The notes under the pieces are model-generated. The model made no database searches. It was not told the DNA's origin and worked only from the letters and a program-made list of their open reading frames with translations. This document shows positions 7,354-49,400 of a stretch of DNA of 64,000 bases, piece by piece. Numbering within the stretch: the stretch's first letter is position 1; every line of letters begins with the position of its first letter. Both the position numbers and the translations under genes were made by a program. The DNA is taken from positions 35,878,760 through 35,942,759 of the forward strand of contig OX344762.1 in the NCBI GenBank assembly GCA_947034895.1, written 5' to 3'. The DNA is from Rhytidiadelphus loreus. Lineage: Eukaryota; Streptophyta; Bryopsida; Hypnales; Hylocomiaceae.

Positions 7354-10300
7354 CAGGGTCCGGGGAGTTCTGTGGGTGAAACGGTAGATTTCCTACAAAG
7401 TTTCATCCACCCCGGTTTTTTGGAAATTTGGCCGGAAGGCTGCAGTGAGGTGGCAGAACTTGCCGGTCAATTTCCTAGAACTTCAATTTCATCCGGTGGC
7501 ATTGCTGCCATTTTCAAATTTCAATAGGCTAATTTCCTTTACTATGTAAATGTAGCCGGTTAAGGACTTTTTTGTGTCTTCATTATTTATTTATTTTGCT
7601 TTGAATTTTTTCTTTTTGCTTTGTATTTTTTTTTTTTGCTTTGTATTTTTTTTTTGCTTTGAATTTTTGCTTTTTGCTTTGAATTTTTTTTTAGCATATA
7701 GCTATATCCCTAGCAGGATTTGAACCTGGCATTGCCCCTACCAATTTAGGGCTAGGGATTCAGCCTTCCGAAAATGCAAAGATCCAAAATAGGGTCCATG
7801 CATTTTCAGGAGGCTGGTTAGTACAACATGCCTACACAACTTTCAACATTCATAAGAATCAAAACAAGTGCAAAAAGATGGAGAGAAGAACATACAATCC
7901 ACCACTTATAAGAATCAAAACATGTGGTAAAAGAATGAATAGAATAGAATACAAGCTACCATGATTAACATCAAAACATGTTAACAAAAAAAATGGAGAG
8001 AGAAGGATTCAACAAGCATGATGAACATCACAACATGTGGAAAAAAATGGAAAGAATTAAATACAACCAAACACAAGCTGTCAAGGCAATTCAAGGCCAA
8101 ATTCAGAAGTTGAAGTGCTAGCAGTAGGACCTGTGGCTATGGCTGAATTAGACAAATAGGTAGTTGGGTTAGCATAGAGGAACTTGTATTTGGTTTCATG
8201 CTTCCACATGGGTATGGCATCTATTAAAATAGCATCATACTCTTCTTCTGGTCCCTCTAAAGCAACTCTAAGCAAAGCATCCAGGTTTTTGCTTCCCAAT
8301 CTATTCCTCACACGAGTTTTAATCAAATTCTGAATGCTAAAAGCTCTCTCACAAGTAGCAGTGGAAACGCACTGCACTCTAGCAATTTCAGCAAGAATAA
8401 GCAAATTTGGGTACCGTATTTGTAGGGCATGATTCCAAGTAATCATACCCCACAAATCTCGGAAGGTTTTGTCCCCCCATTCAGTTGTACACTGTAATTT
8501 GAAGGACAAAAACTCTCGCTTACAAGCCTGCACATCCAGAAGGGGAGGGAAGGAAAAACCTGAATGAGATCGATCAGTTCCATAGAACTCAAGCAATTTG
8601 TCCAACTCGGTGACACCCTAGTTCTGCAGGCCAACTTGCTTAGACGGCATATTAGAAGGATTCAATATTTTAAAACAAGAAATCAAATCATTGTCACGAA
8701 ATCTAGCCTCCAAACCAGCACAAACGGCCTCAGCAAATGAACGTTGGAACTGCAAAGCTTCTTCGAGGTCTACTCCTAGTCTAGAACGCTGAATTTTGCA
8801 ACCGTGATACATATCCCCCCTAATCTCAGATGGAAGCTTCCTGAGCAAACCCCCGAAAGAGCCATACTCCGGAAGCACATGGTAGCCTAAATCTTCGTTA
8901 AACGTGTCTGCATTTAGATCAGTATTTTCCACAATGAACAGCATACGAATTTGGGCTATCTCGGAACGCACAATGCTACCTACAGTGGTCACATCCACAA
9001 ATTTGCACTGAAATACCTTTGACAACGTAGCTAAGCAATGCAAGATATCAGCAAGGAAATATAAAATATAAATGAACTTGAACTGCCCTAATTTCTGCAA
9101 GATGGGAGCAGCTGTACCTGCATCTTGGCCCTTCAGGCCACGGAAGAATTCGAGGACAGACTCCAAAGACTCACACAGGGTTGTAATTGCTTGCCACCGA
9201 CTTAGCCACCGGATTTTGTGGTAACGCTTCATTGTTTTTTTTACGTCAAAGAATTCCTCTTGAAGTTTAGTAAGGGTGTGCTTCCGCTTGCTAGACTTGT
9301 TGAAAAAACCAGCAACTGAATTTAGGAGAGAGTCGATTTGGGAAGAAATTACCTTGCAATCTGGAGACTTCGCTGCGTCCAAGGCCGCCAAATTCGTTCG
9401 ATGAGCAACGCAGTGGACAGATAAAAGGTAAGGATTCACCTGTGACTTGATTCGGGCAGCTACTCCTGTCAAATTGCCCACCATGGTGCTAGCACCATCG
9501 CTCCCAAATCCGACAAATTTCCGCAGGTCAAGCCCCCATCTCCGAATGCTTGAAATTAAAGTTTCATAAACGACACCTGAGTCCTTCTTCCCCCCATCGA
9601 TCTGCAACAAGCCAAGAAATAAAGTCACCGGTAGACCCTCCTCCACAATGCTAGCAAAAATGACGAGGTGCCCTGTGACACTAACATCGGTTGATTCATC
9701 AATCATGACACCAAAAAACGCTGAATTCCGCACACGAGTAATAACCTGCTTCTGAATCACAACTGAAATGCATATCATGAGGTCAGCACAAGATTTCTCA
9801 TCTTGGTACATCGATAGGGTCATCGGAGCTTTCACAGTAAGCAATAGTTTACACAAAGCAGGGAATTTCGAATAGGGTAAAGACTGCTTCCCTAGAAAAT
9901 ATGCAGCCCGAAAGAGTGAAGCCACAGCTTCGTCGCACGCCCTCTGCCCTTGCAAAATTGCCTTTTCCATGACCTTCTCACCACTTTGCGACGCCCAAGC
10001 TAGCCGTCTGTGCTCTCCAGATCGAGCATGGTCCTGGAAAGAGCTGACCTTCAAGTTCCTGGCACCGTCTTTGGCATACGACGATCGCCCGCCTTTATCC
10101 CTGCAGACTTTACAAAAAACCCTCCCAACATTTGGACAAAAATGCAACCAATCGAATTGAATGGCCCATTGCTCCTTCCACTGCCCTTAAGCAATTTCGA
10201 CCTCTGAAGGAGGAGTGTAAGCGACTTGTGAATCAGCTGTTTCGGGAGAAGAGTTCTCGGACGTTGACGAGAAGATTTCAAAAACATCAAGTTCCCTCGA

Positions 10301-12819: not shown

Positions 12820-13412
12820 AATCCCTAAAGGACCAAGTTACATTTTTTTGGTACCATAGTGATTTGGGGTAGCTCACTACAAATGGAATTTTTATTTATT
12901 TTTCTTTGAAATTTTCACACAACATGGGGACTAGGTTTTTCTTTAAAGCCCAACAATTTTCATAACTTTTGACCACAAGGTTAAAAAATTACTATATGAT
13001 ATATAGTTCTTTTTCTCAATTAGTTAGTCTGGATAGATAGAAAAAAATCACTTTTTTCATAAACAAAAATTTGAAATTGGTTTTCTAGATTTATATATAC
13101 GTGGAAAGTTTTGAATCATTCCATTTCAATCAATGAAATGAAAGTTTTGAGGAGTTTTAGTTATGGATTCTCTACTCTAAAATAAACTTTGAAGTCCTTT
13201 ATTTAACTCAATTTTCAATACTTTTTGAAAAAATAAAATGATAGGATGTAGATTGTTTATTAAAATATTACAACCATTGCTATACAATTCTAAATGATCT
13301 AAAATTTTCAAGCATGTAGCCAACTTGCCTTGAAGAATGAATCCAAAGAAGCAATATGGACATTTTTTCATACAAATGTGACCTTGTAAAGTGCAGCTGC
13401 CTTGTTTTTCAC
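12820..13412. mobile_element. TTAACCCCTAAAGG-ended repeat, copy b, left half
   Basis: It begins atccctaaaggaccaagtta and runs colinear with 31995-32690 of the uninterrupted copy c (shared phrases include ttggttttctagatttatat and acaaatgtgaccttgt). It stops abruptly at GTTTTTCAC (13404-13412), where the 15.3-kb element begins. The missing right half resumes at 28730-28962. This broken repeat is the target-site evidence for the large insertion. Confidence 0.85.
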
Positions 13413-13460
13413 CAACGACGCTAGCGTGTGAGCGTGGAGCGGTGAGCTTGTGAGCTGTGA
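13413..13460 (+). repeat. Left terminal inverted repeat of the 15.3-kb element
   Basis: It starts directly after the 9-bp duplication. GCTAGCGTGTGAGCG and further GTGAGC units match the inverted right end at 28695-28729 with small gaps. Repeated GTGAGC/GTGAGT units continue inward and may be transposase-binding sites; that role is inferred. Confidence 0.75.
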
Positions 13461-14084
13461 GTGTTGGAGGAGGAATTTTTAAGACTTTTATACTGAAAAC
13501 ACATATTGTTTAAAAAAAAAATCAAAATTTGAAGAAAAATTTCCTATTTCAAGCAAATTTAAGGACCTATGACTGCTATCCCTATTACCGTGGATTCTAA
13601 GGATTTTTGTCCACAATCTGTCAAGGTTTACTTCATGTGGAACTTCTTTCAGCCATCACAAAATATAAGAAACTTATTTTCAAGAAAAGAAAAGAAAAAG
13701 AACAAAAATTGAGGGAAAGAAATGGAAAAAAGAATATAAATGAATATAGAAAGTAAAAAATAATAATCAACATTGAAAACAAATGAAAATGAAAACGAAA
13801 AAAATGTGAAAATAAATAGAAAAGGAAAATAAATAAAGGAAAAATCATATGGTAAAGAGAAAGACCAAAATGGGTTCGGGATATAGATTTTAGGGTATGC
13901 ACTTTAGGTTAAGGGCACGACTTATATCTCTCAACCATTCATACATTCTATTTGTAAAACATAAGAATCATGACATATATAAGTTGACTTCGTGAACACT
14001 TAAGCAAAGTCCTTTCTATAGCCACAAAATTGTTTTGATCGTAATAAGTAAATGAAAACATTCCAAATGAAGTACAAAGTATGC
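13461..14084. other. Subterminal non-coding region of the 15.3-kb element
   Basis: A/T-rich DNA with a purine-rich stretch (13680-13860, repeated GAAAA/AAATA). It lies downstream of the transposase stop codon, so it contains that gene's 3' UTR and terminator. No open frame with a recognisable protein. Confidence 0.5.
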
Positions 14085-17000
14085 CTATTCCAAAACTGTG
14101 ATGATCCCTGCTTGAACTAGAAGTAACTTCAACTCATTGAAGCTATAACTTGGTGCATGAATGAAAACATCATCATTGATGTCCATCTTGCAAAAGTATC
14201 TAAATAAATAGTACAAGTGCTTGCAATTCACGTACTTCTGTCGACCTCCAATTGCAGAAACAACCATATTTGTAAAGTCTGGGCACGTGCACGTGGGGAA
14301 CATACCCACAGTAATTTGATACACATTTTGGTTGGGGTCTGTCCCTGTCTCAAGTGACACTATTGCACCAAGGCCTGGAAATGGAAGCAAGGTCACTCCT
14401 ACAATTTGCCCTCTTACATTTCCAGCGCTCTCCCACTTGTTCCTCTGTTCTGTAGTAGGTGCATTTCCAATTCGGCATATGGTTTTGTTGTTCCGAACTG
14501 TTGGATACTGAGTCGAATTGGATGGCGATGGCTGATCATAGATTACGCTCTTGAATACTTTTGATATATTGAAAAATTGACGTGGTGATAATGCAGGTCG
14601 TTCTTGGAGGGGGAAGCCTGCATGCTGTAGTAACAAAGTCTCATCCCTATTCAAATTAGTCCCAATCAACATAGGCCAAACCTCCGGCACCTCTGGCCGA
14701 TCAATGACCCATTTGCGTTTTGAGCCCTTGACACATCGTTCAATGTCATCCCAACAAAACCAAAAGTCCGCCACCACCTCTCGCTTACTCCCATAATCTT
14801 CCTTTCTACCGCGGTAGGTGGGAGCTAGGGTTCCCAGACGTCCCTTTGCTATTTTCGCCATGCACTTGATGTTTGATCCCTTCTGTTGAGTTTGACATTT
14901 TGCACCAGATTTGTGGTTGATTCTTGCAATATGCCACTTTGATGTGTCACAGTCACTTTCAAATGCTATTGTAACATGCTGAAAAGTATTTCCTGTGGCC
15001 TCTTTCCTCTTCCCCTCCGACGACTCCATTGTAGCTGCATTTGACCTTGTTCGAACACGCGGTTGAGAGAAATTAACTTTGTCTGGTCGATGTGAATCTC
15101 CTACATCACCAATGGGTATGTCCAACTTCTTCTTTGTGCTTCCAAAAACTTCCTCCCCTTCCAAATGGAGTACTCGAGTTCCAATATCTTTTGCTCCAGG
15201 TAGTGTGTTCAGTGCTTCTGCTATTTTCTTTGGATCTCCACTTCGTCTTGCAGCTCTCAACTTCAATTCCCCCTTTGATGGACCAGATCCGCATGTATGC
15301 CCTCTCAAATATGCACGGTAGTTTGTCATTTTCATCCATGCTCGAATACTATCGTCACAAGTGGCATCAAACAAATTATTGCCTCGGTTTCCGGACATTT
15401 GAAGCCACTTGTTATGAACTGTTTCCGACAAATTGCATGAAGGCATGTCGGCCATCTCTTCCAAACTCAAATCCTACAAATCTAAGCAAACAAAAATATG
15501 GATTACTATATCAAAGTCCATATGTCATGCCAAACAATATTTTAAAAAATGAATACAGAGATGCAGGTAAAATTTACAAAAGAAGAGTCCGGTTACCAAA
15601 AAGAGGAGTCTTGTTAGAGACGACTAAAACATTAGTCGGATCCGACTAAGGTCTTGGTGGTATCAGTTGGACCCCCTCTTTTCGGTACCCCTCACTTTCA
15701 TTTCCTCATTATTTTGAATAATTGAATAAATTAGTTGGTTATTATTTATCACAAACCACCCACATGAACCAACAAATACATACATAGAAGTATACAATTT
15801 TTTTTAAACAACACATTTATCAAAGAATACAACACATATAGATATTTAAATTTCAGAGACACTTACCATTTGCATGAAGCCGCCCCATTGCCTGTAACGA
15901 AAATGCCAAAATGCTAGCCAGTGGTCTAAATGGTGAAGTGCCTCTTCACTTGCAGCTCCCGATGATAACCACCATGACCGGATCGCATGATAACGTGTGT
16001 CGGCTTCCTCCATGGTCTTTGAATCTTTGTATTGTTTGCATATTGTATTGTGTTGATGTTGGAATGATTCTCTGATATGCTTTTGTGTGTGCTTCTGAAG
16101 AGAAGTTGTCCAATGCAACAAACAAGTCCTCTCACGATTCTCCATCTTTTCATTGGCTGAGCCACTGCCGTAGACAATACGAACCGCATTCCAATTGGCC
16201 ATGGTACTATCTGCCATGAATCCTTTAAAGTTTGGATGGTCCACTCCGTTCCGTAACATTACATTGTTCAAGCATCTCCAAAACTGTATTTGGATTTCCG
16301 TATCTTCAGACTGCATGTCACATGTTGAAATGGTCATTACTTTCTTGTACTCATGATCATACACGTGGCAAGCCATTGTGGTCCACTCCTTTACACGCTT
16401 GACGTGGTCAAACATCATCCACGTGTTTTGAAGATCACCTCCGGGTTGCATACGCTTCACTAGGTCCACCCCACTCCCAAGTCCTTCGGTGAGCATTTTG
16501 AAGATATACACCTTCTCTTTACCTTGTCCAGGGAAGACGATGTCGTGTATGTACACAAACTTAGAGTCCTTCTTCATAGTCATAATGTTGTCAATAACCC
16601 CTCCTTGGTTGTTTGAGCGAAATGAGGAGATCACATTTCGTATATTTGGACTGCTAAGATACTGGAAGCGATCCATGACCTCCTCTAGTTCCTCACCTCT
16701 CAACATTTCCTTCTCCCCCTCTCCATTGTGAAAAAGATAGTCTGTTAAAAAGTCTTTGCTAGCGGATAGAGCAATGGCTGAGTTGGTGGCCATTGGTGTT
16801 TTGGCCACCTGTTTGGCAATGAGTCCACAGATTTGGGCCGTAGAATCTCTATACATCCCTTTTGCCACCGGATGAGTATGATTCCCAAAGTGAACTGCGG
16901 CCCTTGTCTTCTTTGGATCATTTGTATAGCAATAATAGATTCTAGCATTACATGTGTTCAGACAAGTAGGTGTAACCTTGCAAACCTTACATACTAAAGT

Positions 17001-18351
17001 ACAACATTAGAGGAGATTTCAGCCCCCTGGAGGGCTGTGAGTTCCCAGACTGTGGGAACTGGTTCGCAGGGGGCCGCAGCAGCTTGTAGACGTGGAATGG
17101 CGACTTCCACGTCGGAAAAAAATAATTTTTTTTTTCAAAAAAATAAAATGAAATTTTTTTTTCTGTTTTTTTTTTGCATTTCAAGAGTAAAACTTTTTTT
17201 TTATTTTTTTTATTTTTTTTTATTTTTTTTTATCGGGAACAGCCGTTCCCCGAAAACTGCAGGGGGACAGTTCCCCCGGAGCTGCTTGAAACGGCCCTCC
17301 AAGGGTCCGAAAACTCCTCTAATGTCTTTGGGAGGACTGTCTCCCAATGCAAATGGAAACGCGGTGTACCTAGTCCACTCTGTTTCATTCTTCTTAGAAG
17401 CTCTCTTTAAATAATCACAATCCACGTTGAAACAAGCAAGATGGCTAGCGCAGTAGGACTTACGGATCTTCAAGTTGTCAGTGTTCCGGATGTTTGTTGT
17501 CAGTACCTTACACCAAGGGTGTCCATCGTATCGCTTGTCCATTCCCTCCAAGTTCTTGGCCGCCGCCAAAGAAGAACATGAGCGGCACGGAGGCAGCTCG
17601 AAGACAACATCTCCATCGTAAACTGCTGGTAGAAATTGCACACGGTGGTGCTTCATGGCATCATGAAGATCCATTGTTGACAACTCATTACGAGAATGAT
17701 GAACGGTGGCTAGCCGCTTCAAGCAATCTATTATGCTTACTCGGTCAACAGGCGTTGGGTGCATTGGTGGATGTGAATGTGAAGACAACGTAGGACTACT
17801 AGAAGGGATGTCCCATATAGATTTATAAATATTTTTATCTCCTGTGATCCAATTGGAGTTGCACATGGTCGCTTTTGAAGTGTCAAGTGAGGGGACTCAC
17901 CTTTTGATTTGCTAGATAACTCTATGATAGGGTCTAATTTCTCAACCTTCACTATCCGGATGAGTGCACTGTTTTCTAGCACGACAGACACTTCAGGAGG
18001 AGCAATAGGTGATATTGAACCAGATATATAAGGCATATCTACGGTCAAATTATTTGACTCTCGACTTAATATCTCCGTGGATGCAGCTAGCAAGGATAGA
18101 GGGAGACCATACGCCCTATAATTTCCCGATGGTAGATACCAACAATGACCTTCTCCGGAGACAGACCTCACAATAGGGATAGATTGCAATAATTCACCTG
18201 ATTCAGACTTCTTCTCTTCTTTGACATAGATTGACGACTCTAAAAACCTAAAGCGGACATGAAGGAGGTGACTACATATTGTAGCACATTTTCCATCCTC
18301 TACCGGGAAAACAAGTGGGACCTGATGACCATCTACTCGAATGCAAGCCAT
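14085..18351 (-). CDS. MULE-type DDE transposase with GCM-like zinc cluster and SWIM finger, exon split by a MITE
   Basis: Likely the transposase that moves the 15.3-kb element. Exons on the minus strand are 18351-17901, 17841-15867 and 15473-14085. Both introns are GT-AG and phases agree, giving about 1,164 aa once the 320-bp MITE at 17005-17324 is discounted (the frame resumes exactly). Domains in order are: an N-terminal region of unknown type; a Cys-rich stretch (CASHLACFNVDCDYLKRA); a zinc cluster resembling WRKY-GCM1 (TCLNTCNARIYYC, then HFGNHTHP, about residues 320-365); a DDE-like core with TTMACHVYD and FMADSTMANWNAVRIVYG followed by RTCLLHW (about residues 530-620); and a C-terminal SWIM finger, CTCPDF plus VNCKHLYYLF. 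No premature stop is seen outside the MITE. The second intron carries one GGATCC hairpin. The MITE supplies stops, so this copy probably makes a truncated protein. The function is inferred from family motifs. Confidence 0.8.
15591..15689. repeat. GGATCC hairpin H1 (transposase intron 2)
   Basis: An imperfect palindrome with outer GGTTACC/GGTACC ends, arms with AGAGG/CCTCT, and the perfect 18-bp core TTAGTCGGATCCGACTAA at 15632-15649. It lies wholly inside the 15474-15866 intron. It shares core and right-arm sequence (aaggtcttggtggtat) with H8. Confidence 0.85.
17005..17324. mobile_element. 320-bp MITE inside the transposase exon
   Basis: The terminal inverted repeats start CATTAGAGGAG and extend with mismatches over about 30 bp (followed by TTTC and a GGAGGGC block). 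The interior contains nested inverted GGGAAC segments and long T tracts. It interrupts the frame between SPPKD and CTLVCKVCK. Deleting exactly these 320 bases restores an uninterrupted frame. No clear target duplication is visible. A weaker relative lies at 55471-55729. Confidence 0.85.
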
Positions 18352-19461
18352 TGTGTCACTTTGCTATGTGAAGACAAGAAATGGAGACATCCAATCTATG
18401 AGTCAGCTTTAACTACAAGTAAGGTTCTTGAAACACTTGACCATGTTTTTTTCTTTTATCCTCATTCTCTAGGGAAGCTAACCTAACAGAAGTTGGTGGC
18501 CTACTATTTTCTCCAATCATAATTATTACTTGCCCCGCCACCAAGGTGAAGGCATCTAGTACTAACCGGCATCCTATCAACAATCAATACGGTGCCATAT
18601 ATTGATATTTACAAACAATGTTCAATAAATTTTAATTTTTACCACTTGAATGCATCATGCATAGTTGAGTGGCTCAAGGTCCCTGCACACTATTAAATTT
18701 AAAAACAAATTATATTAAAATGAACATAGTCCAATTTATATTTAAATAAAAAAAACATAGTAAAAAACTTGCATTATGGACATACATACACCATTTGGAA
18801 TGGACTTGTTAATGCATGTGTGAAGCCTAAAATTTTCAAAATCCTTTTCACAACTAAACCTTCAAAATTATTCACTTTTTAAATCTTTTTTAATCCACAT
18901 TTTATTCTAAAGTTCAAGGGGAGCCAATAAACGAAGGAGATTTTGTAGACTGAACATAATTGAACACCTTGGTCCTACATATAATTTAATGTGTATAGGC
19001 ATTAGGGGCAAATATAATTGAATGTGTATAGGCGGTTTAGGGTATTTAGTAAGATATAATTGAATAAGTATCCCGAGATATAATTGCATGTGTGAAACTT
19101 GTTTTGTACAATTTCAAGTCATAATTTACGCAAAAATAGTAATTGTGCGATTCAATTGTAATTATCTTTAATGCAAGATTGCAAACATTAACTACTTATC
19201 AATGCAAGGGATGAAGGGCAGTTGGAGGTACTTTGTCATTGACGGCAAATTTGAAATCTTGGCAACCGGCTCATTTATATAACCAGAGTGAAGGCATATG
19301 TCAGCGTAGTTATTAACGTTAGTGAAAGCCGCCACAACCCAAGCTTTTCAAGCATAGAGGACTATTTCCTATAATCAGTCTTTCTAATGTTCACTATGTC
19401 GCTAGTCATTTCCGTTCGGAGACAGGTTGATTCTAATTTCTGAGAGTTTTAGTGTAGGTCG
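18352..19461. promoter_or_regulatory. Divergent intergenic region between the two genes of the element
   Basis: It lies between the start of the minus-strand transposase gene and the first plus-strand exon-like frame, so both promoters should be here or just outside. At 18960-19090 the sequence holds several spaced copies of an ATATAATTGAATGTGTATAGGC-like unit in varied forms, possibly regulatory. The (+) tail at 18352-18485 is open in one frame but has no recognisable protein. Confidence 0.4.
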
Positions 19462-19776
19462 TTGCACCCCATGCTTTCTAGAAATGATAGCTTTTCAGTA
19501 GTTTCTCCAGCTATAAAAAAAAAGCGTAGAAAGTGTAGGCTGATATATTTCTCGTCTAGTAAGGCCCTTGCGAGATTAAAAATGACTAGAGCGAAGAAGG
19601 TAGTGTCTAAAACAACAAATGTAGCGCTCGGTGATCCGCGGAGAATTCTTCGTTTTGGAGGAGGAGAGAATGCCAGTCATGACAATGATGAAGTTCTAAG
19701 TCTAGGAACACTTCAAGAGGATTCCCAAGGTACTAATGATGCTTACAACGCAACACTTCACGAGGCCGTTCCAACT
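19462..19776 (+). CDS. Exon-like frame, candidate first exon of a cargo gene
   Basis: The open frame starts MHPMLSRNDSFSVV and is basic (IKKKRRKCRL) then acidic. It ends at a good donor (CCAACT followed by GTGAGT at 19777). It reads like a nuclear, low-complexity N-terminus. No domain is recognised. I could not join it confidently to a following exon, because acceptor candidates near 19867 give a stop in the matching phase. It may be the decayed 5' end of the ParB/methyltransferase gene or a separate gene. Confidence 0.4.
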
Positions 19777-20337
19777 GTGAGTCCTTCCATCTTCCATTCT
19801 TTTTCTTGAGTCTCGGACAGATTAGGGAGATACTTCACATTTCAAATTTTTGTTTTGCATTTGCAGTAGAGATGTAACCAGACTGTGGATTTCAAATCGT
19901 GATCAAAGGTAGGATTAGGGTTTACGGATAAGTGTTGGAACATAAAAAAAAATTCTATTTAAGTTCTGATGCTTATAGTGGTATCACCTACCTTTATGGT
20001 TTTGACGTTTTAAAATTTTACAATATATATCTTTTGTTTCTGAGAGATTCGTGAGATTTGAAAAATCCTTTATGTAATTCAATACTAAAAGATCTAAGAG
20101 GTTCAATATGCATGATAGATAATCCTAAACTGAAAGAACCAGCCGTGAGTGCGGTTTAGAATCAGGATAAATTTTGATGGAGTCACTTCATCAAGAAATT
20201 GATCAAGCAATGCTCTCAAGTGGAAACTTCTATGCACAGTTTGGGAATCTAACGTAACTTCTAATTTTGGACCGACTGAAGCAACGGAGAATAGAAACAT
20301 TCCTCCTGTTCCACATGTTCCTGTGGGTGATGTCCGA

Positions 20338-20555
20338 ACCTGCTCCACCCGATTCCTATCCACCCCCACGTCGCAGTGCAGTTGTACATGTACCTCAAAT
20401 TTCTGATGAAGGTAAGCGTAAAATCTCACTTCCATTTCTTTGATCTTTGCTGCTTGCAGAAGAGTACGAAGATGAACCTCCGAAGTTGCTCCCGCGAGGA
20501 TACAACTGCGCAGCAACCAAGAGGGTTGGCCAAATCTCCCCGGCAAGCAAACCAG
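20338..20555 (+). CDS. Two exon-like pieces upstream of the hairpin array
   Basis: The first piece ends at 20411 with donor GTAAGC and reads EPAPPDSYPPPRRSAVVHV then PQISDE. The second is 20460-20555 between a pyrimidine-rich acceptor and donor GTAAGA, reading EYEDEPPKLLPRGYNCAATK. The splice joins them in phase. The next recognisable exon (22896) does not continue this phase, so the model is incomplete or this part has decayed. No family is recognised. Confidence 0.35.
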
Positions 20556-20920
20556 GTAAGAACATTGAGGTTTAGGCGGTTGATTTCTTAGTTTTCTAAA
20601 TCTTTGTGATGCTTGTGTTGCCGCACCATAATCTGGAAGTTGATTCCCTGGAAGGCTAAGTCTCTAGACTGCCATCTCCGAGGCCCCGACATTCAGTCTC
20701 CGATGCTTTGGACTGGGGTGAGATGACGAAAGATTGTTGAGACATCTGTGGACCTGATCTGGTCTCGGCTCGCGTTGGCCTTGCTGTTGATTCGTGCTCT
20801 CGTGGATCTTGAAGTGAGATCTCGTTGCTCTCGCGGTTGAACTGATTGCAGTTGAAAGAGGCTCGCGTTGGACTGATTTCGCAATGCACTCGGATCTTTG
20901 ACTGGTTTCAAACTCATTGT

Positions 20921-22366
20921 CACGTTCACGGGTACTGATTTTGGTAGGTCTAGCTGGTGTTGTCCATGGCCTAGTCGGATCCGACTAATGCTTGGGTGGC
21001 ACCAGCTGGACCCAGAAAAATAGGTACCTGTTAATGTGACTGGGGTGACTAAGTCAGATCTTTGGGTGCATTAGTGCGTCAACTAAGATTGTAGAGGTGA
21101 ATTCTTGAATGATCTAGACAAATAGCGGGAGAATCTTCAGGTGCTTGATCTCATCATCGAGCGCTTGAATGGCCTTCTGGGGCACAATAACCAGATCGTC
21201 TTTGGTTGCACTAGAGTCATGGTGACTTTTTCTAAGGCGGTTGAACTTCCCTTGGGTCTAAGAATCCCTTACATCATAGGATAACTTCATTTGTTCAGCT
21301 TGTAAATAAAGCTAATCTTGCCTCATTCATTGATCTCGCCGTTGATTTCCTAAACCCAATGCCTTAATTTAACAACAAATGCTTTAATATTGAAAGTGCA
21401 TGCGTCCTATTCAAAAAATACAGGAAGTCACGTTCACGGGTACTGATTTCCACAGGTCTAGCTAGCGCCACCCAAGGCCTAGTCGGATCCGACTAATGCT
21501 TGGGAGTCACTTGCTAGACCCACGGGAATTGATACCTGAGAACGGGACTGAGGTGCGTGACTGAGGTGTGTGATTGACGTGCGTGAGCTAAGGTGCGTGA
21601 CTGAGCTGCATCACTAGGGTGCGTGATTGAGGTCTTGTGACTAAGGTCTTGTGACTGAGGGGCGTGACTGAGCTACGTGAGCTAAGGTGCGTGACTGAGC
21701 TTCGTGAGGGTTGATGCGTGAATGAGGTGCATGCCTAAGTTTTTTACAGGCAGTCACGTTCACGGGTACCGATTTCCACAAGTCTAGCTGGCGCCACCCT
21801 CGGCCTAGTCGGATCCGACTAATGGTTGGGAGTCACCTGCTGGACCCACGAGAAATGGTACCTGAGAACGTGACTGAGGTGCGTGATCTGAGCTGCGTGA
21901 GCTAAGGTGCGTGACTGAGGTGCGTGAGCTAAGGTGCGTGAGTTGAGCTGCGTGAGCTAAGGTGTGTGACTGAGGTGCGTGAGCTAAGGTGCGTGACTGA
22001 GGTGCGTGACTGAGCTATTTACAGGTAGTCACGTTCACGGGTACCGATTTCCATAGGTCTAGCTGGTGCCACCTTCGGCCTAGTCGGGTCCAACTAATGG
22101 TTGGGAGTCACTTGCTGGACCCACGAGAATTGGTACCTCAGAATGTGACTGAGCTGCGTGTCTAAGCTACGTGATTGAGGTCTTGTGATTGAGGTGCGTG
22201 ACTGAGCTGCGTGAGATCAGTGCGTGATTGAACTATTTACAGGAAGTCAAGTTCACGGGTACCTATATCCACAGGGCTAGCTGGTGCCGCTCAAGGCCTA
22301 GTCGGATCCAACTATTGCATGGGAGGCACCTACTGGACCCACGAAGAAAAGGACCCACTAATGTGA
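20921..22366. repeat. Array of five GGATCC hairpins (H2-H6) with GTGCGTGA spacers
   Basis: There are five imperfect palindromes of about 118 bp: 20921-21039, 21429-21548, 21755-21872, 22030-22147 and 22248-22366. Outer arms read CACGTTCACGGGTACC and GGTACCTGAGAACGTG. Cores are CTAGTCGGATCCGACTAA at 20971, 21479 and 21805; CTAGTCGGGTCCAACTAA at 22080; and CTAGTCGGATCCAACTAT at 22298. Between H3 and H6 the spacers are tandem GTGCGTGA-type units (GAGGTGCGTGACTGAG and variants). Core-to-core spacing shrinks from 326 to 275 to 218 bases. The array lies between exon-like pieces, probably in an intron. Confidence 0.88.
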
Positions 22367-22895
22367 CTTGGGTACGTTAAAAAATTTTGGACTGCATGAA
22401 TTAATCCTAGAGTGTGAAATTTTCCCTTTGGTGTGTAAATTCATCACGGAGTGCATGATGAAATCTTTTACATTTTCATCATATCATTTAAGATTTTATG
22501 ATTGAGTATTTAATAATTATTAATTTTTTATTCTTTTCCAGTTTTTTCCTTATCCATTTTTTTTCCTTATCCATTTTTTTCCTTATCCAATTTTTTCTTA
22601 TTATTGTAGAAAACTAAATTTTCCTTCATGCATTTTATGTGTACAGTCCATTTAAAAATATCTCCATGTCCATTTTTCAACCTAAAATAGGGGCGGTTTT
22701 AATAGTTAGAAGAAAGATAAATTCCTTTGATTTTTTTTCAATATTATTAGAATTCTAGATCTTCTAACACATTATAGATTAGGCTCCCATGTAAATGGTC
22801 CTTGTCATTGAACGTCTTGACAATCTTCCATGCGCATGCAAATAAATAAAAATTTGAGCTTCAAGTACTAATTTAGTTTGTTTTCTACTTCCAGA
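22367..22895. other. Non-coding stretch after the hairpin array
   Basis: AT-rich, with a short repeat of TTTTTTCCTTATCCA at 22545-22605. It ends in a pyrimidine-rich acceptor (tttctacttccag). Probably intron. Confidence 0.45.
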
Positions 22896-23396
22896 TACAG
22901 TCCAGTACTAGAAATATTGCTCATGCTTCACCAATTATGGTTCAAGATGGCATGGTCCCTATTGGTGATGTGGCGGGACCATCTCAAGTGAAGCTGCCAC
23001 TAACGAAGGCAAATGCTGACATTGAGATTTCCAGTGACAAATCGGGTGACGAAGATGATGACCTTGATATGGTAAGCTTCAATGACATCATGGATGCTGC
23101 CGATCGCGCGGTTGACCAATTTGAAGAAGAACCTGTAGCTAGTCATATTTTAGCCCCTTAGTCACGGAAACGGAAGGCACCCGTTTTCTCAGATGAGAGC
23201 TCTGAGACAGAGTATAGCTCATCGAGCGAGTCATGTACTTCAGTTGGTGACAATATTAATACCTTTTGTAGTTGTGCGACCAGCACCCTCGTAGGCAGGC
23301 ATGAGGTGGTGATCATCCACCTCAGTTCAGATGAGGATGAAGATGTTGATGTCGATTCCTTTGGATTGGAATTGATATCTATTGAGAGCTGGTAGA
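22896..23396 (+). pseudogene. Acidic exon with two SUMO-interaction-like motifs and one in-frame stop
   Basis: Open from the acceptor at 22895 with a possible internal start at 22937. It contains DIEISSDKSGDEDDD and, after an in-frame TAG at 23159-23161, VVIIHLSSDEDEDVDVDS. Both look like hydrophobic SUMO-interaction cores followed by acidic/Ser residues. The frame closes at TAG 23394-23396. The TAG at 23159 fits CAG changed to TAG. It may be an internal exon of the ParB/methyltransferase gene or the last exon of a separate upstream gene, because the phase to the 23592 exon is not convincing. Confidence 0.45.
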
Positions 23397-25690
23397 TTAC
23401 CACAAGTTCATTACAGACCTATTGAGTGATGGTTATTTATACTTAGATCATTGAATCATCTTGTCATTGAACTTTATGCCTTTTACAGTAAAGCATGGTT
23501 TTCATGTTTTTATTATATCTCAAACTTTGTACACAGTTCTCTGATTGCATTCATTTCAAAATTTTGAGTCTTTTTAAAAATGATGTTGCAGATGGAATCC
23601 TCTCTTATCAATCAAACTTAAGAGGAGCGTATATTGGAGACCCCAGGGACAGATGACACCACTCAGCTAGAAATTGGGGTTCAAGACGAAGGAGATGCAA
23701 TGGATGATGATGCTGGTGAAGATGAAGAGAAACAACTTCTTGAAGATGAGCTCCGCCTCATTCAAAAGGTGGACTCCGTGGCAACACTTGCGTCTTTGCA
23801 TATGCAACCTGAGAAACTATTCCGTTTTTCTATCCCTTTGTGTAGGCTAGTGGCGATGCCAATGGTCCGACCGACATTGTCTTGCGACATAAAAAAATTG
23901 GAGCAGGAGTTCTATCATGGGTACCAACCTGGAGCTGCCGCCCTCTACGTTTCCACAACAAACAAGGCAGGTGAGAGCATGGATTTCACAGATGAAGAGA
24001 TGAGTACTTGGGGACCCCTTTGGAAAAAAGCAAATGGCGAGTTTATAGAGCACGTCAATTCACATGCGGAACTGCAGTTTCTAAAGAATGCTAAGCTCTT
24101 CGTATGTGACGGAAACCATCGTCTACAAGCATGGATGAGTCATATCTTTAGACTACATCAAACAGAGGAGGTATGGCACATAGCAGTGGATTGTATAGTT
24201 CTCAACACCAAAGGTAAAGTCGAGCTGGTCATGCAGGTCATGCATGACATAAACAAGTAAGTTGATTTTCATACAAATTAATCACTTATATGTTTTAGTA
24301 GATTTGTATTGACTTAACACTTTTTTGCTATGAGATGATCGAAAAGAAAATTCTAATTGAAATTTTGCAAATACAGATCGACTAAGGACTCCCATGTGAA
24401 GACCAACTTGGTTCACACATTGTATAGGGTGCAAAAGTACAGCCTTCTACCCTTGCACAAGTTCATGGAGATGTTGAGGCCATCAGAAGTGAAGAAATGT
24501 ATGGCACCAAGTACTAGGAAAACGTGGTACTCGATGTCGGCTGATGTTTTCAAAGCTTTCATGTTTCGAGTAAGATTTTGATTCTAAAACTTTTTTCTTG
24601 GAAATTATTTTAATGTACAGTAATATTTTTGGAGGGGGGCCTGTTGTTGTCTTCTTTAAATTTGGTTAATGAAATAGGGTTCATTGCAGCAAGAGATTTC
24701 AGTTGCAGCGGATTTTGCTGGACGAAAATACACTGAGACGACTCCAGTGGACGAGAGAAGTGAAATTGGCATTGCAAATGCCATGAGAATGGGGGCAAAA
24801 GAGAAGGCAAACAAGTTGTATATGAAGATGATGAAGTTACTGGCTGTGGCTAACCCCGTGAATGGTCCACAATTCTTAGAAGAGGTAAAATTTTTATTAC
24901 ATAAATCTTTTAGGATAAGCTTGTACTTTGATTTTCATTTTTTTTTTAAATATAAATTTTGTAATTTTTCAGGTCGAGAGGCACTGGAGTAATAATGAAG
25001 CCCCTGAGATGACACTCGAGAAATTGTAGCTAATAGCTACTTGCCACACTACTCCTCATCACAAGACAAAGTTGTTAAAGTGGTGGAATGCATCGCTACC
25101 GTCTCGTGAGGCTTGGAAGTTTCCGGCAAAGCTAGTTTCGGAGACACTCCTTGGGCCTTTCTTGAATAAATGCATATGGTGGGCTGGGGTAAGTGCTTGG
25201 AAATTAGTTTTCATAAGTTTTGATTTAATTCATATTTTTTTTAGTAAACAACGTTTTCTTTACTTCATTTACACGTACAAGACTTGATAGAAGATGAATC
25301 TAATTTATGTGTTATTTCTTGAAGATCGAAGATGCAGCGGTGGAGTACTTCGAAGGGGTGGTGAGAGACGATAATATTCCAATCAACATGGACGTTCCGT
25401 AGCGCCCTGAGCTCCTAGTGGATTACGTGGAAGGATGGAGGAGGAAGATTTGGGAGCAGGGTTTTATGGCACATTTAAAAGGAGCAAACTATTTCAAGAA
25501 GGGTGATTCCTTCCTGAATTTCGAGGGCTCTAGCTAGGCAGTTCGCAGAGTTCTTTTCCGGTTTGTCTTTTGAACTTCCCATGAGTCATTTACATAATTA
25601 AAGATGAAGGTTGTACATTGCAATTTATGAACTTTAGGTACTAGCGTAATATTGGTTAGAAAAATGACTTGAAATCGAACAGCATACAAG

Positions 25691-25775
25691 AAATTAGGAG
25701 TCCAACTAGTACCTTTGAGATGGTAGGATCTCACTAAGGTCTTCAAGATACCAGGTTGACCTCCAATTTTTGGTA
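25691..25775. repeat. GGATCC-family hairpin H7, degenerate core
   Basis: Arms aattaggagtccaactagta and ggttgacctccaatttttgg are inverted relatives around a core AGGATCTCACTAAG, where the GGATCC has decayed to GGATCT. It lies in the 25561-26189 intron of the ParB/methyltransferase gene, 130 bases before H8. Confidence 0.65.
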
Positions 25776-25904
25776 TGAAATGGGTTTCTATTTTATTTTT
25801 CTTTATTCCAAATTATCTTTCTATGTTTGTGGCATCTTAGTCATAAATTATTTATTGTATTCTTTGCTTGGATTCACTTTTGAAATGAGTAGTTCCAATG
25901 AGGT

Positions 25905-26000
25905 GTACCAAAAGTAGGGGGTCCAAGTAGTACCTGCAAGACCTTCATCGGATCCGACTAAGGTCTTAGAGGTACTACCTAGACCTCCTACTTTTGATAC
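25905..26000. repeat. GGATCC hairpin H8 (same intron as H7)
   Basis: Left arm GTACCAAAAGTAGGGGGTCC and right arm GACCTCCTACTTTTGATAC fold onto each other around TTCATCGGATCCGACTAA (25944-25961). Inner arms GCAAGACCTT and AAGGTCTTAG also pair. This is one of the best-paired copies. Confidence 0.85.
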
Positions 26001-28384
26001 ACAATTTTTGTTTTTTGTTTTTTTTGACATATATTTTTTTTCACATCGTTATTTAACTTTTTATTGAATCCCTATTTCCTTAAGGTATTTCAATTTTTTT
26101 TGGCTCACATTTCTATATGCAACAAAACTAATTTGTTTTTGGTAGAGGTTGGAACTTATATGTTATTCCTTTTTTCCCTTGACCTTCAGGTATTTCAAGT
26201 TAGAGCTTCTACCAAAGGGTGCAATTTCCCAAAGTGATCTTCCTCCTTTTTTGTCTACATGGCTTGATCGTAGTTCGGCAAATTGCATGTATACTACGAA
26301 CCAACTTCGAACGTTCACCACAGCTCATCTCAGTGGAGGAGGGTGGTATTTGGAATGCCACATCACCTTCACGCCATCGTCGGAAGTAGGGTACCGGAAA
26401 TCATTTGAGGGACTTGATGCCATTGACTTGGACGTTGAGGAGTTTGTAGGCCTTAGTGAGAGACAGAAGAGGAGGGCCATCACGAGGAGGGAGCACAATG
26501 ACAGAAAGAAGGAAGCTCGGGAGAAAGTTATCTTCAGCACGAAGGAGAAGAAAGAGGCCGACAGAATTGCAAAGTTGGCAGAGAAGGAGCAAGAGAAGGA
26601 AAAGGAAAAGGAAGAGAAGGCAAAGGCGAAAGGCAAGAAGAAGGTGGACTCGAAAGCCCCAATTCCAGCATCTTCTACAGTGGATCAAGTCTCGCAAATG
26701 CAAGGCACGTCTCAAGTTGGAGTGAAGAGGAAGGCCCTCTCGCAATTGACTGAAGACTTCATCACTCACGGGACCCAAGCTCTTGTCTTTCTTGAAGATG
26801 AGGGGGATGACACAGAGGATTTAATCCTTAACATCTCTATTGATGACCTTGTGGATGACATGCGGTCTCCTAAGCCGACTTTGTATGCACAGGTTGTGGA
26901 TTTCTTGAAGAAGGTAATATTTCACGTTTTTAATAGCAAACCTATTTTTTGACTTCAATGACATGAGAATCATGTGAATTCATAATTAATTTCTTTGAAT
27001 GCAATTTTATTGTAGATATCACCAGGGAAGTCTCGATTTTTTGATGGTGTAGTTAATTGAAGGCCAGGGGTGGATCTCATCTTCCTTGATTGTCCGGAGA
27101 ATCTACCAGTTCCGTGGATTTCCAGTGCAAAAAATGAGGTTCCGGCATGGAACAAAGACATTGAGTACGAGGCTATGCAGTCAGTATTTGCTTTTGCAGA
27201 AAGGCATCTACAGGACCATGGATGTTTGATAATTATCCACTCATTCTCTGTGGCTTCCAAAAGCGCAATTAAAGGATTGTGTGAGATTTATCCAATGTTA
27301 AAGAAGGAGTGGTTGGGCATAAATCGCCTGCACTTGACTTCGGCATTGGATAACACAACCACGGTAAGTATAATGCCAAATTTTTAGCAAAATGATGTTA
27401 GTTTATAATTCATTTTGTAATTCAATTCTTACATTTTGGGGGGGATGCTTGCAGACGCAGAAGTTTTCAATTACCCTTTTTGTGAAGGATTTGGGTGCGA
27501 AAGGGAAATCCAACTTTTCTTTCAAATACACACAGATGATGAAGAGTGCAGGTCTTGACATTGGACGTGACGATATCTTGATGAACTTCACCAAAGACAT
27601 TGACTTGGCGATGGATGGCCCTAAGCCATGGCGTGGGGCTCGTGAAAAAGACCCTCGATTTTTTCAACTCCTTCTTGAAGCCACAACCGATGAAGGAGAT
27701 GTAATGCTAGATTGCACTGCAGCTACAGGTGCAAATTGAATACTCTAACCACGGATTTGATTTGAAATTTGTAAATACATCATTCAACTTATTTATTTGG
27801 TGTTATTCAATCTGGACAGGTGCATCTATTACCGCTTGTCGTGGTACAGGGCGTCACATTGTGGCGTTAGAGGAGGATGGGGACATTTTTAAAGCCATCC
27901 TTGACCCCATGAAGAAGTCTATTTCGGTTGTAACTCCAACACAACTACTAGTGGCAGTTGAGGAATCTAAAGATCCGGACGTTATGCCCATTGTAGCTCG
28001 CAAGTTCGCCCGGAAGACACCATTGAGTAAGTAAGTTTGCAACTTTTCTGTATTTCCTTTTTTCCACATCATGTTTGACGTTTTGCAATCTAAAATTGTT
28101 TCACTTCTACTTGCAGTCTTCAACGATTGACATCAACAGGTGGATTGATGAAGACACGAAGACTTTTCTTGAGTCCAGAGAAGCCTTTTCATCTTCCTGT
28201 CTATACCGAGCAGATGGCATCGGCATTTGCAGAGTTTGGTTGTTCTAAACCAAAACGCCATAAAGATACATATGCTTTGAATGTTTTGCATTTTATAGAT
28301 GGTAGTGCATGTGAGGGTAGAGAGACTTCAGAGTCATCATCATCTACGACTGACGCTTCTGCGACAGCGTCCACTACCACTTAG

Positions 28385-28694
28385 ACTCTTGAGATTCACA
28401 TCTCTTGAGTTGAACTATTATGTGTGGATTTTTATTATAATTGGATTTTTATTATGATTGGATTTGTGTGTTTTATGATTATATCTTGGATGCTTGTTAT
28501 TTTCATTTGAATTTTTTACACCTACATGACTATTGACAATAATCACAATTTATTCTCTTCTAAAACATCATCCACATACGTTTGCAAGTTCCTCAAATTC
28601 CATTATAATGACTCTATATTTTCTAAAATTTAAATATTCTAAATCCACGGTCATAGGTACCAAACTTGTTTTTTCTTTGCAAAAAATTCCCCGC
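28385..28694. other. 3' end of the cargo gene and right subterminal region
   Basis: Presumed 3' UTR (repeats of GGATTTTTATTATGATTGG at 28424-28470) and AT-rich DNA up to the right terminal repeat. No gene. Confidence 0.45.
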
Positions 28695-28729
28695 TCACAG
28701 GCTCACAGGCTCACATGCTAGCAACCCTA
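28695..28729 (-). repeat. Right terminal inverted repeat of the 15.3-kb element
   Basis: On the minus strand it starts TAGGGTTGCTAGCATGTGAG and continues with two more GTGAGC units, mirroring 13413-13445. It is followed immediately by the second GTTTTTCAC copy. Confidence 0.75.
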
Positions 28730-28962
28730 GTTTTTCACAAGGCCAAAAACACAATTTTTGCCAATTCAAACACTAATATTATGCAATCCACATGGTGAAA
28801 ATTTCTGAAATTTATCCACGTCTTCCCAAACCAAAATACTACAAGATCCTATGGTTACATGTGTCCAAAAATGTTTTTTGTCTAAAATTTGGTACTTGTA
28901 TTAGAAATAGCAATTTTGAAATATTTTTGGTGAAAACATAGTCAAAGAACTTTAGGGGTTAA
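28730..28962. mobile_element. TTAACCCCTAAAGG-ended repeat, copy b, right half
   Basis: Colinear with 32700-32937 of copy c (ctacaagatcctatggttac and ttttggtgaaaacatagtc are shared) and ends CTTTAGGGGTTAA. Together with 12820-13412 it rebuilds one repeat, split by the 15.3-kb insertion. Confidence 0.85.
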
Positions 28963-31994: not shown

Positions 31995-32937
31995 TTAACC
32001 CCTAAAGGACCAAACACTGTTTTTTGGCAACATAGTAATTTTGGGCATCTCACTACAGATGGATTTTTTTCTTTTTTTTCTTTGAAAATTTCACACAATG
32101 TATGCCTAAGGAGTAGCTTTAAGGCACAACAATTTTCATAACTTTTGACTACATGGTTAAAAAGTAATTGCATGATATGTAATTTTTAGCAGTCAGCGGG
32201 CAACCTAGGCAACCCAAAAAACTTCTTAAAATATCATTGATAAAAAAAATAAAAATTTGAAATTGGTTTTCTAGATTTATATATACGTGAAAAACTTTTA
32301 ATCATTCCATTTTGATTTATGAGATGAAAGTTATGAGGTGTTCTAGTTTGCAGGTAGTTATAGATTCCCTACTTGAAAATAAACTTTGGAATATTTTATT
32401 TAACTCAATTTTTTATATTTTTTGAAAAAAATAGAATTATTGGATGTAGATTGTTTATTACTACATTACCACCGTTGGGATTGGAGTTTTTCAATTTTAT
32501 AATGAAATTCTTAACAATTTAGTGCTTTGAATCACTTTGTACTTCTTTCTACTTACTATTTTTTTCCTATATGTTATGCAATTCCAAATGATCTAAAACT
32601 TTTTAAGTATGTAGTCAACTTAGATTCAAGAATGAATCCAAAGAGTAACCAACATTTTGGGCATTTTTTCATACAAATGTGACCTTGTGAAGTGCAGCTG
32701 CCCGTATTTTTACAGGGCCAAAAAATGTTTTTTGTCACTTCAAACGTTAATATCTTGCAATCTACACGGTGGAAAATTCTGAAATTTTTTCCACATCTCT
32801 TCAAACTATTTTACTACAAGATCCTATGGTTACAAGTGCCTAAAAATGTTTTTCATCTAAAATTTGGTGCTTGTATCAGAAATGGCAATTTGGGAGCATT
32901 TTTGGTGAAAACATAGTCTTTGACCTTTAGGGGTTAA
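31995..32937. mobile_element. TTAACCCCTAAAGG-ended repeat, copy c (uninterrupted)
   Basis: It starts TTAACCCCTAAAGGACCAAA and ends CCTTTAGGGGTTAA. It is colinear with the two halves of copy b and serves as the empty-site reference: its cagctgcccgtatttttaca block spans the point where the 15.3-kb element sits in copy b. Length is 943 bp, partly through small internal insertions. Non-coding. Confidence 0.78.
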
Positions 32938-46461: not shown

Positions 46462-49400
46462 TCAGGAGTTTTCAAGAATTCCTTTCACGGAGTAGAACGT
46501 GCCAACACCCCCAGCCAAGAAGCCAAGGCAAATGATCAATAGAATCCAAGACACCTCTGGTCTTGACAGCCGCCCCCTGTGTATTCTTAAATAGCAGATG
46601 CAAGGTACATGAACGGAGACAGCCACACTAAGGAACGAGCCAATGAAGGCCATGAGCAGGCCAAAGAAGGGAAGCGCCAGGGCCACAGCTACGGTGCTAG
46701 CAACCAGGAAGGTTCTGAGAATGGTACCTCCCAACACTATCCCCTTTCTGGAGCTTGTCCATTGATGCGGCAAAAACTCCTCCAGTGCCACTGCCAAAGG
46801 CATCAGTGTGAGCGCGTACTTGGCGAAAGGGCTGATCAGGGTGATCCAGACTGCAAACGTTGAAGCTGGAAGTTCCCTCGGAAGATTCAGAGTGATTTGC
46901 GATTGCAGCTCGTCGCCAAACATCATGTAACCCATCACGGCTATCCCTCCATACATGAAGGTGCACAGAACGAAACAGATGATCAATACCTGCGCCAAAT
47001 AAACATGTCACATGAGGTTCATAATAGTGTAGCAATCCAAACTCCTGAGAAAAAACCCACTTACATCACCCCAATCATGGGTACCTTATTCCCCGACACA
47101 TGACGGTGTAGAAGGGAACAAATTATCAAAACCCGCACCATCGAAATACGTCACATGAGGTTCATAATGATGTAGTGATCAGCTAGTATCAACAACCGGC
47201 TATGCTGTGAGAGGCTCTGTCCCTCACATTTCAAGAAGCAACCTACCTGTCACTCCCTCACATTCGCCAAAGACATACCTTCTGTCAATGCAAGGCCTCT
47301 TCTACTTCTTCGGCACATTGACTCGCTTTTCAAGTAGCAACCTACTCAAACTTCCTCTCATTCACCAAAAAAGTAGCTTTTGTTATTGCAAGTCACGCAA
47401 TTCCTCGCCTTCGGACTAGAGCTAATCATTTACAAAATGTAAGGTGGTGGACCCTTTTTCATAGGAGACTCTTTGTTGCAGGAAAGGTATAGAATGGACA
47501 TGTACCTTTTGTGGTCAGGATGTACCCCTTGGATACGTTCTAAAACAAAAATCCCGACCATCATAATATGCATTGGAATTGTCTTTCAATTGCTAACAAG
47601 GTCATAAAGTCATTTTAATAATAGGAATTATACTGCTTGACCTGGTGCTGTTACCTAATCGTCGCACATGCGAGAAAGAAAGAGAGGGGGAATTGTTGCA
47701 TCACTTACAGATGAAAATTGTTTGCGGTCTCGCATGGAACTATAGATACTTGGAAAAACCGAGTGACCACAGTAGCAGAAAGAGTAGAGGCCAATAGCCA
47801 CAGGCAGCCCTTCCATATGCAGTAAGGAGCCCTGGTTATGAAAACCCACGCCGTCCACCACGCCAACCCAGCCCACTGCCAACACTATCAACAGGGACGC
47901 AAAGACTCCCCCAGCGGAGACATACGACAAGAAGCGGAGCTCTCGGAGCCAGACCGTGGGTAGCACGCACAGGGCAGCACACACTGTAAACACTTGCTGG
48001 GGTCCCAAGACGCTGAAGCTGGCATTCGGAAAGAGACTGGCCAGATTGTCGCCTTCCAGGATCAGAAACTCGATGGACACAGCGTACAGCTCTAGGTACA
48101 ACATGATGGAGATGATCCACCGCCCCCACTTGCCGAAGGAAGCCTCTCCAATGTCAGGGAAGCTGATGATGAAAGGATCGGAGTCCAAGCACCGACGGAG
48201 AAGAATGCCAGTGTAGCACATCACGGTGGCAAACACGAGGAGGAAGCCGAGGCCGAGCCAGCCCCCGCTGGCGACTGCATAAGGGGTGGACAAAATCCCC
48301 ACACCTGCAAATACCACCAGTGGAAATTAGAACCAAAATCCCCAAGCACAGCAACATCCCAAGATTGAGCTATAAGTCAGCTGCATTGAGGTATGTTCGC
48401 ACTTGGTGTGAAGAGTGGTGTTAGTGAGCCTCTTAAGAAAACATTTTGGTACACCATTAGACTAAATTCACTCCTTCTACCACTGCTAACACCACACCTA
48501 ACACAAAGTACAACACTAACATACCTCTAGGCTTATAAAGCTCTAGCACAATCAGTTCAATACTTTCTTCTAAGAGAGGACACTAAAACCATTAAAGACC
48601 TGATCCCATCTGACCTTGTTACCAACAGCAACTCACCTATTCATACACTTGGTTGGACTTACTATTAGTGGTGTAAGCATGACTTATTATCGTGCAAGCA
48701 TGATCTTTGAATGAAAATGGGGTTGTCCACTGTCGCTTAAAGTGATATACACGTTCCACTTCGAAATTGCACAGGAAATCATAGATAGTGATAAAAACTT
48801 CATCTCAACGAAGTTGGCTACAGCGATCTCTCCAAAGCTCTATACTGATCTTCGAGAAATAGCACACCTAAACATTGGTCAAACTGCTTAAAGTGACGCA
48901 AAAAGTGTCCTCTACCTAAGTTCATAATACAAAGGGTCCAAACCAACCATTTGACTCCAACAGACCAAGTTTAATGTCCCCGACGAAAAGCAGGAAAAGG
49001 GATACAGAAGAGGTTTCATTGACCATCCAGTCCATTAAATGCTCCATTGACCATACAGGTGAAATTTGATTTGTGGTGAGTGTGTAAACACTTAATCTAT
49101 TGACATTTAAATTTTTGCAATTGATTTCTAGCTTAACATAGAATAAATGTGCACAATTTTAGATGGTGCACGTTTCTAGATTGTTGTAGGGAAAGGCTTC
49201 ACGTTCACCTATATGATGAATGGAACCTCTCCCTCGCTGTCTGGTGAATGGAGACTTTACATTACCTGCAAGGATGTTCATTCCGTTAAACAAAGCCTGA
49301 AGAAAAGAGCTTCCGTGCGCATTCTCCTCCTCGTCGTCAGGGAGCTCGAATTCCTTCGTTTGCAATCTGCTGTCTGCATCCTGGACTTCACTATCCCCAT

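Follow-up and report, generated by a model that had tools for sequence, protein, structure and literature searches.

A large moss transposon of probable Mutator/IS256-like type with a ParB/methyltransferase-like gene as its probable partner

ParB-methyltransferase genes of transposons have already been described as a kind. According to Dinatale et al. 2025 (PMC12477816), they are accessory genes in algal transposons of superfamilies other than the one considered here, including the 21.5-kb Sola1-1_Ec32 of Ectocarpus, and Iyer 2011 and Petroll 2025 are cited there for green and red algae. Here we analysed 64,000 nucleotides (the window) of the moss Rhytidiadelphus loreus (assembly GCA_947034895.1, contig OX344762.1, positions 35,878,760 to 35,942,759, forward strand), in which a 15,317-bp element carries a transposase gene (gene 1) and a second gene (gene 2) with ParB-like and methyltransferase-like domains. 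We interpreted it, with a probability of about two in three, as a dead member of a family of large cut-and-paste DNA transposons with two genes, in which a Mutator/IS256-like transposase would regularly be accompanied by a ParB/methyltransferase-like protein that would bind the DNA of the element and mark or shield it.

Like Sola1-1_Ec32, the element is large and encodes, on the strand opposite the transposase, a protein of about 1,100 residues with ParB-like and N4/N6 DNA methyltransferase-like domains. Unlike that Sola-1 element of an alga, it is Mutator/IS256-like, made a 9-bp duplication and resides in a plant; the likeness is one of size, strand and domain make-up. In gene 2, the methyltransferase-like domain has an altered motif IV. 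No report of such a transposon gene in a land plant was found in our literature search, which was mainly at the abstract level and included few subscription papers. As far as this search shows, what is new here is the occurrence in a plant, together with a transposase of Mutator/IS256-like type and a change in motif IV.

Mutator-like elements (MULEs) make target duplications of 8-11 bp, often 9 bp, and MuDR carries a second, non-transposase gene beside its transposase. The element shares the DDE transposase fold and the 9-bp duplication with MULEs, MuDR and IS256 (ISCth4), and the presence of a second gene beside the transposase with MuDR. Unlike MULEs and MuDR, it has no curated Pfam MULE match, and its inverted ends are short and imperfect.

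A ParB domain fused to a DNA methylase is also found in prokaryotic ParB-methylases such as Bce_0392, whose ParB domain is reported to nick nonspecifically (PMC5512222). Phage methyltransferase families matched the last domain of gene 2 and also P0123, a relative of this domain in the moss Ceratodon purpureus. A total of 184 phage records matched the latter, and the best 15 of the 184 were 22-37% identical over part of it. Unlike the prokaryotic and phage proteins, gene 2 has a long middle region, introns and the altered motif IV. Retrotransposons of Symbiodinium and the charophyte K. nitens likewise carry their own, acquired DNA methyltransferases; these are C5 cytosine enzymes of another protein family (PMC5890265). 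The parts at hand of a study on Physcomitrium transposons (PMC7466625) contain no Mutator or methyltransferase term. Those of a study on giant transposons (PMC6431247) contain no ParB term, and describe 16-20-kb En/Spm families with 4-5 open reading frames (ORFs) in the red alga Chondrus.

The extent of the element was set by the flanking duplication and a paralogous empty site.

13413-28729, no strand assigned: whole element, 15,317 bp
13404-13412, plus strand: left target-site duplication, GTTTTTCAC
28730-28738, plus strand: right target-site duplication, GTTTTTCAC
12820-13412 (aligned 12820-13401), plus strand: left part of an older host repeat with one copy of the duplication
28730-28962 (aligned 28732-28962), plus strand: the same host repeat, right part
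31997-32937, plus strand: second copy of the host repeat without the element (related empty site)
13413-13461, plus strand: left terminal region, GCTAGCGTGTGAGC followed by GTGAGC repeats
28693-28729, minus strand: right terminal region, inverted GCTAGCATGTGAGC followed by GTGAGC repeats

The two copies of GTTTTTCAC are identical and directly abut the borders at 13413 and 28729. The 9-mer alone gave weak support for an insertion: the window has five copies where 1.27 are expected, a count that one of 100 shuffles also reached. The decisive support came from the empty site. When the flanks were joined with a single duplication, they aligned continuously over the junction to the copy at 31997-32937 (identity 81.5% in the junction-spanning piece, 74.9% in the piece left of it), so the older repeat was split by the element. 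The duplication at both borders and the halves of an older repeat around the segment, which a preliminary description made from the sequence alone had claimed, were thus both borne out. The element is a single DNA transposon insertion with a 9-bp duplication.

Inverted GCTAGC/GTGAGC ends had also been described. The motif GCTAGC[G/A]TGTGAGC (up to 2 mismatches) matched the window only twice (0.28 expected), once at each end of the element, with the two copies oppositely oriented; two matches were reached in 2 of 100 shuffles. The inversion is only rough, however: the outer 7 bases are unlike (CAACGAC versus TAGGGTT). Local alignment of the two ends over 300 bases scored 77, barely exceeding the maximum of 73 in 300 shuffles, and inward of about the first 40 bases the relatedness of the two ends is not convincing. 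The ends are short, imperfect inverted repeats, of which only the 14-bp core and the loose repeats match.

Gene 1 occupies the left part of the element.

17326-18351, minus strand: N-terminal coding part, apparently split over two frames (ORFs 17737-18351 and 17210-17866; by-eye assignment of the upstream one)
15867-17003, minus strand: exon with the first two candidate catalytic Asp (16407-16409 and 16209-16211) and CxxH (16113-16124); donor GTAAG at 15866
14085-15473, minus strand: last exon; NLSETVHN contains the candidate catalytic Glu (15423-15425), and a SWIM-like CxC...CxH lies at 14208-14291

The structure model (predicted local distance difference test score, pLDDT, 76) has a strand order that fits an RNase-H-fold DDE transposase, and transposases and integrase cores were among its best matches in the fold comparison. 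The candidate Asp residues are kept in 33 of 34 and 34 of 34 aligned transposase sequences, respectively. By this model, gene 1 is a DDE transposase gene. ISCth4, which we take to be a member of the bacterial IS256 family, ranked first in both fold comparisons, but with template-modelling (TM) scores of 0.19-0.24 and a Z lead over the integrase cores of about 1. As ISCth4 fits the model best, the fold leans towards a Mutator/IS256-like transposase. A sequence search of PDB found no relative at E values of 1 or below, and no Pfam model scored above its cut-off on gene 1. A C-terminal SWIM zinc finger is found in many plant MULEs; here the SWIM-like motif is present, and Pfam SWIM gave 12.3 bits (cut-off 19.6). 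Of the DDE/SWIM transposase proposed in the preliminary description, the DDE fold with its Mutator/IS256 lean therefore stood, and the SWIM part was seen as a motif below the Pfam cut-off.

The transposase might instead come from a different eukaryotic superfamily of similar fold, such as hAT or KDZ. We considered this unlikely in view of the first rank of ISCth4, the 9-bp duplication, and the CxxH after the second Asp and NxxE ahead of the SWIM-like motif, which are MULE signatures.

A two-exon relative of the transposase lies on a 4.1-kb contig (L001) filed under an uncultured cyanobacterium. Its protein gave 13.4 bits with Pfam Transposase_mut (cut-off 21) and covered 17345-17770 of the N-terminal part of gene 1 in tblastn. 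It was the single contig found when genome_contigs was scanned with the transposase alignment; the ParB alignment found no relatives there. Four scans of viral_contigs (transposase alignment, ParB exon, ParB alignment and the Ceratodon protein) gave no confirmed relatives. L001 is probably plant contamination of that assembly, and a viral or prokaryotic home was rejected.

Gene 2 lies on the plus strand, divergent from gene 1 as had been stated.

23592-28384, plus strand: gene 2, 10-exon model, 1,109 codons, GT-AG at all 9 introns
23592-24256, 24377-24569, 24690-24884, 24973-25188 and 25325-25560, plus strand: exons 1-5
26190-26913, 27016-27363, 27455-27728, 27820-28030 and 28117-28384, plus strand: exons 6-10
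19581-22895, plus strand: likely 5' exons and a long intron, read by eye in three-frame translation, outside the 10-exon model
23817-24257, plus strand: ParB/sulfiredoxin-like domain, DGNHR at 24108-24122
27016-28030, plus strand: methyltransferase-like domain with motif IV DCPE (in 27085-27102) and the S-adenosylmethionine (SAM)-binding AATGAS (27710-27827, across an intron)

The model of the first domain reached pLDDT 79 and a predicted TM-score of 0.70. In VIA-align, ParB, Noc, KorB or PadC took ranks 1-13 of 33 rows; the other 20 were 8 sulfiredoxins, 8 SbnI or free serine kinases, 2 BrxU and 2 unnamed proteins. Foldseek gave E values of at least 0.036, with ParB, Noc and sulfiredoxin entries leading. 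DGNHR is conserved in the alignment of the ParB exon (57 sequences). The sole match of the ParB profile in PDB, a ribosomal protein (E 0.2), was taken as chance.

The last domain gave 16.4 bits (E 0.009) with Pfam N6_N4_Mtase, below the cut-off, and its Ceratodon relative P0123 gave a methyltransferase match of 35 bits, above it. Four relatives of this part were found (P0121-P0124), the Ceratodon one being the only one named. Motif IV comes first and the SAM motif later, which is the beta-class order. The domain thus resembles beta-class N6/N4 DNA methyltransferases.

The preliminary description had inferred that the ParB/methyltransferase gene travels as a regular partner of this transposase. 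One point in favour is that both proteins have many relatives. To compare the two proteins, the 120 matches listed for each search were reduced to contigs of at least 10 kb, which were equated when identical in size to the base. Among these listed matches, the transposase occurred on 53 distinct contig sizes and the ParB exon (ORF 23634-24260) on 30, with 4 in common (161,174, 327,815, 31,334 and 239,112 bp). As only about 0.0015 such identities are expected by chance for unrelated contigs, the four pairs were taken to be the same contigs, holding relatives of both. The 31-kb contig is the most telling of them. What the sharing means depends on the total number of contigs searched: the probability of at least four shared contigs is 0.07 for 1,000, 0.002 for 3,000 and 0.00002 for 10,000. 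The transposase and ParB identities also correlated over the five pairs (the window and the four contigs), with r 0.87 (0.86 from rounded values); 3 of 120 permutations were as high, and three of the contigs may be from one species.

Gene 2 could also be a host or foreign gene that was picked up once, other copies of the transposase lacking it. Pack-MULEs do pick up pieces of genes, and the relatives of the transposase (321) outnumber those of the ParB exon (161), with just 4 for the methyltransferase part. Such a one-off capture is nevertheless improbable, given the four long contigs with relatives of both proteins and their congruent divergence. Moreover, gene 2 is a multi-exon gene and not a fragment, and the same type of passenger occurs in algal transposons. 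Another origin of the association would be a separate mobile element carrying gene 2 that landed within a smaller transposon, and the element is indeed large and holds at least one nested insert (17004-17325). Gene 2, however, is bracketed by none of the 25 longest of 126 inverted-repeat pairs and stops 345 bp short of the element's right border. A nested origin was therefore rejected as very improbable.

Several observations weigh against parts of the proposed interpretation. None of the indirect evidence places both genes within the same ends in a further element. The four shared contigs tie the transposase to the ParB exon and not to the methyltransferase part, and the contig that carries the Ceratodon relative (47,310 bp) was absent among the transposase matches listed. 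The long terminal inverted repeats usual for MULEs, including MuDR, were not found at the ends of the element; MULEs without them exist. The Pfam MULE model matched 0 of the 34 transposase members, and the label MULE is a reading from fold and duplication length rather than from a curated match. Since no Pfam ParB model recognised the domain of gene 2 or any of the 57 members of its alignment, its ParB-like assignment rests on fold and the DGNHR motif. Finally, the aromatic residue of canonical motif IV is missing in all four sequences that span the site.

The indirect evidence of numerous relatives, shared contigs and correlated divergence makes gene 2 a likely but unproven regular partner of this transposase, the present element being the only one in which the two genes were read inside matching ends. 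As to the distinct plant MULE lineage proposed with it, ParB-methyltransferase passengers are not unique to this lineage and also occur in algal transposons of other superfamilies.

Active N6/N4 DNA methyltransferases have [DNS]PP[YFW] as motif IV. The corresponding residues are DCPE in the window, DCPE in P0121, DCQE in P0122 and DIPE in P0123; P0124 does not span the site and was left out of this comparison. Because of this atypical motif, methylation cannot be assumed, and the gene 2 product is to be read as methyltransferase-like. The ParB/methyltransferase gene of the preliminary description was upheld to this extent: one protein combines the ParB-like fold with a methyltransferase-like domain. 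It may no longer methylate at all: the last domain would then be a relic that binds SAM or has a structural role, and the protein would serve the transposase as a cofactor that binds DNA. We do not favour this, and still give it an appreciable chance: the altered motif, in the window and in three of the four relatives, speaks for it, and the retained SAM motif (GTGAS) of the Ceratodon relative, where the Pfam match takes in both motifs, against it. With the motif IV aromatic residue lost, a purely binding role is a serious alternative. A signature of methylation decay specific to the element was unsupported, CpG being 0.64 in the element and 0.52 in the rest of the window, so that depletion is not stronger inside.

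In the two-gene transposon that we propose, the gene 1 product would have mobilised the element by cutting at the roughly inverted GCTAGC-TGTGAGC ends, as its fold and motifs suggest, leaving 9-bp duplications. The gene 2 product, a putative regular accessory protein with ParB/sulfiredoxin-like and beta-class methyltransferase-like domains, would most likely bind the element's own DNA through its ParB-like part. It would then mark or shield this DNA during transposition or against host silencing, or assist the transposase.

Provided that the two genes are indeed partners, accessory genes of the ParB-methyltransferase kind are bound neither to algae nor to one transposon superfamily. Their uptake by, or retention with, several transposases, in hosts ranging from brown, green and red algae to a plant, would point to a shared benefit. 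This also raises the question of whether a transposon uses a bacterial-type enzyme to mark the DNA of which it consists, or whether the enzyme part has been reduced to a binding module. There may be a bearing on the origin of bacterial-type methyltransferases in plants.

Neither gene of this copy looks intact. Gene 2 has five in-frame stops (codons 10, 370, 449, 494 and 758; P0121 has Arg at the last of these), and the coding region of gene 1 is broken by an insert resembling a miniature inverted-repeat transposable element (MITE), where L001 is continuous. The preliminary description had noted neither the stops nor the insert. The copy was therefore read as dead.

17004-17325, no strand assigned: MITE-like insert in the gene 1 coding region, 322 bp, 35-bp inverted ends (86%), no clear target duplication by eye

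Palindromic modules were found between and within the genes.

20919-22377, no strand assigned: five palindromic modules in an array around TAGTCGGATCCGACTA, interspersed with a minisatellite of GTGACTGAG type (13 bp)
15594-15694, no strand assigned: single palindromic module, gene 1 intron
25899-26002, no strand assigned: single palindromic module, gene 2 intron
15633, 20972, 21480, 21806, 22081, 22299 and 25945: TAGTCGGATCCGACTA-type palindromes

All seven window matches of the 16-bp palindrome TAGTCGGATCCGACTA and its variants (up to 3 mismatches) lie inside the element (0.11 expected). GGATCC occurs in six of the seven, and these six scored as midpoints of longer imperfect inverted repeats, unlike the three GGATCC outside the element. 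The palindromes may be foldback MITEs or putative binding sites of the gene 2 product. It is conceivable, but quite improbable, that the ParB-like part loads on the seven palindromes and spreads, and that the altered methyltransferase-like domain marks or reads element DNA apart from host chromatin, like a bacterial partition or DNA-marking system.

Matches to PADLOC JetC, AAA_14 and a T-cell receptor were judged to be chance. Elsewhere in the window, the ORF at 8618-10147 (minus strand) encodes a zf-C17orf113 zinc finger and DUF4371, and presumably comes from a hAT-like element. That at 47655-48317 (minus strand) matched the Aa_trans amino acid transporter family with 118.6 bits and is perhaps part of a host gene. 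Two diverged arrays of a tandem repeat, whose basic unit measures about 98-101 bp, lie at 57595-58684 and 60974-61430.
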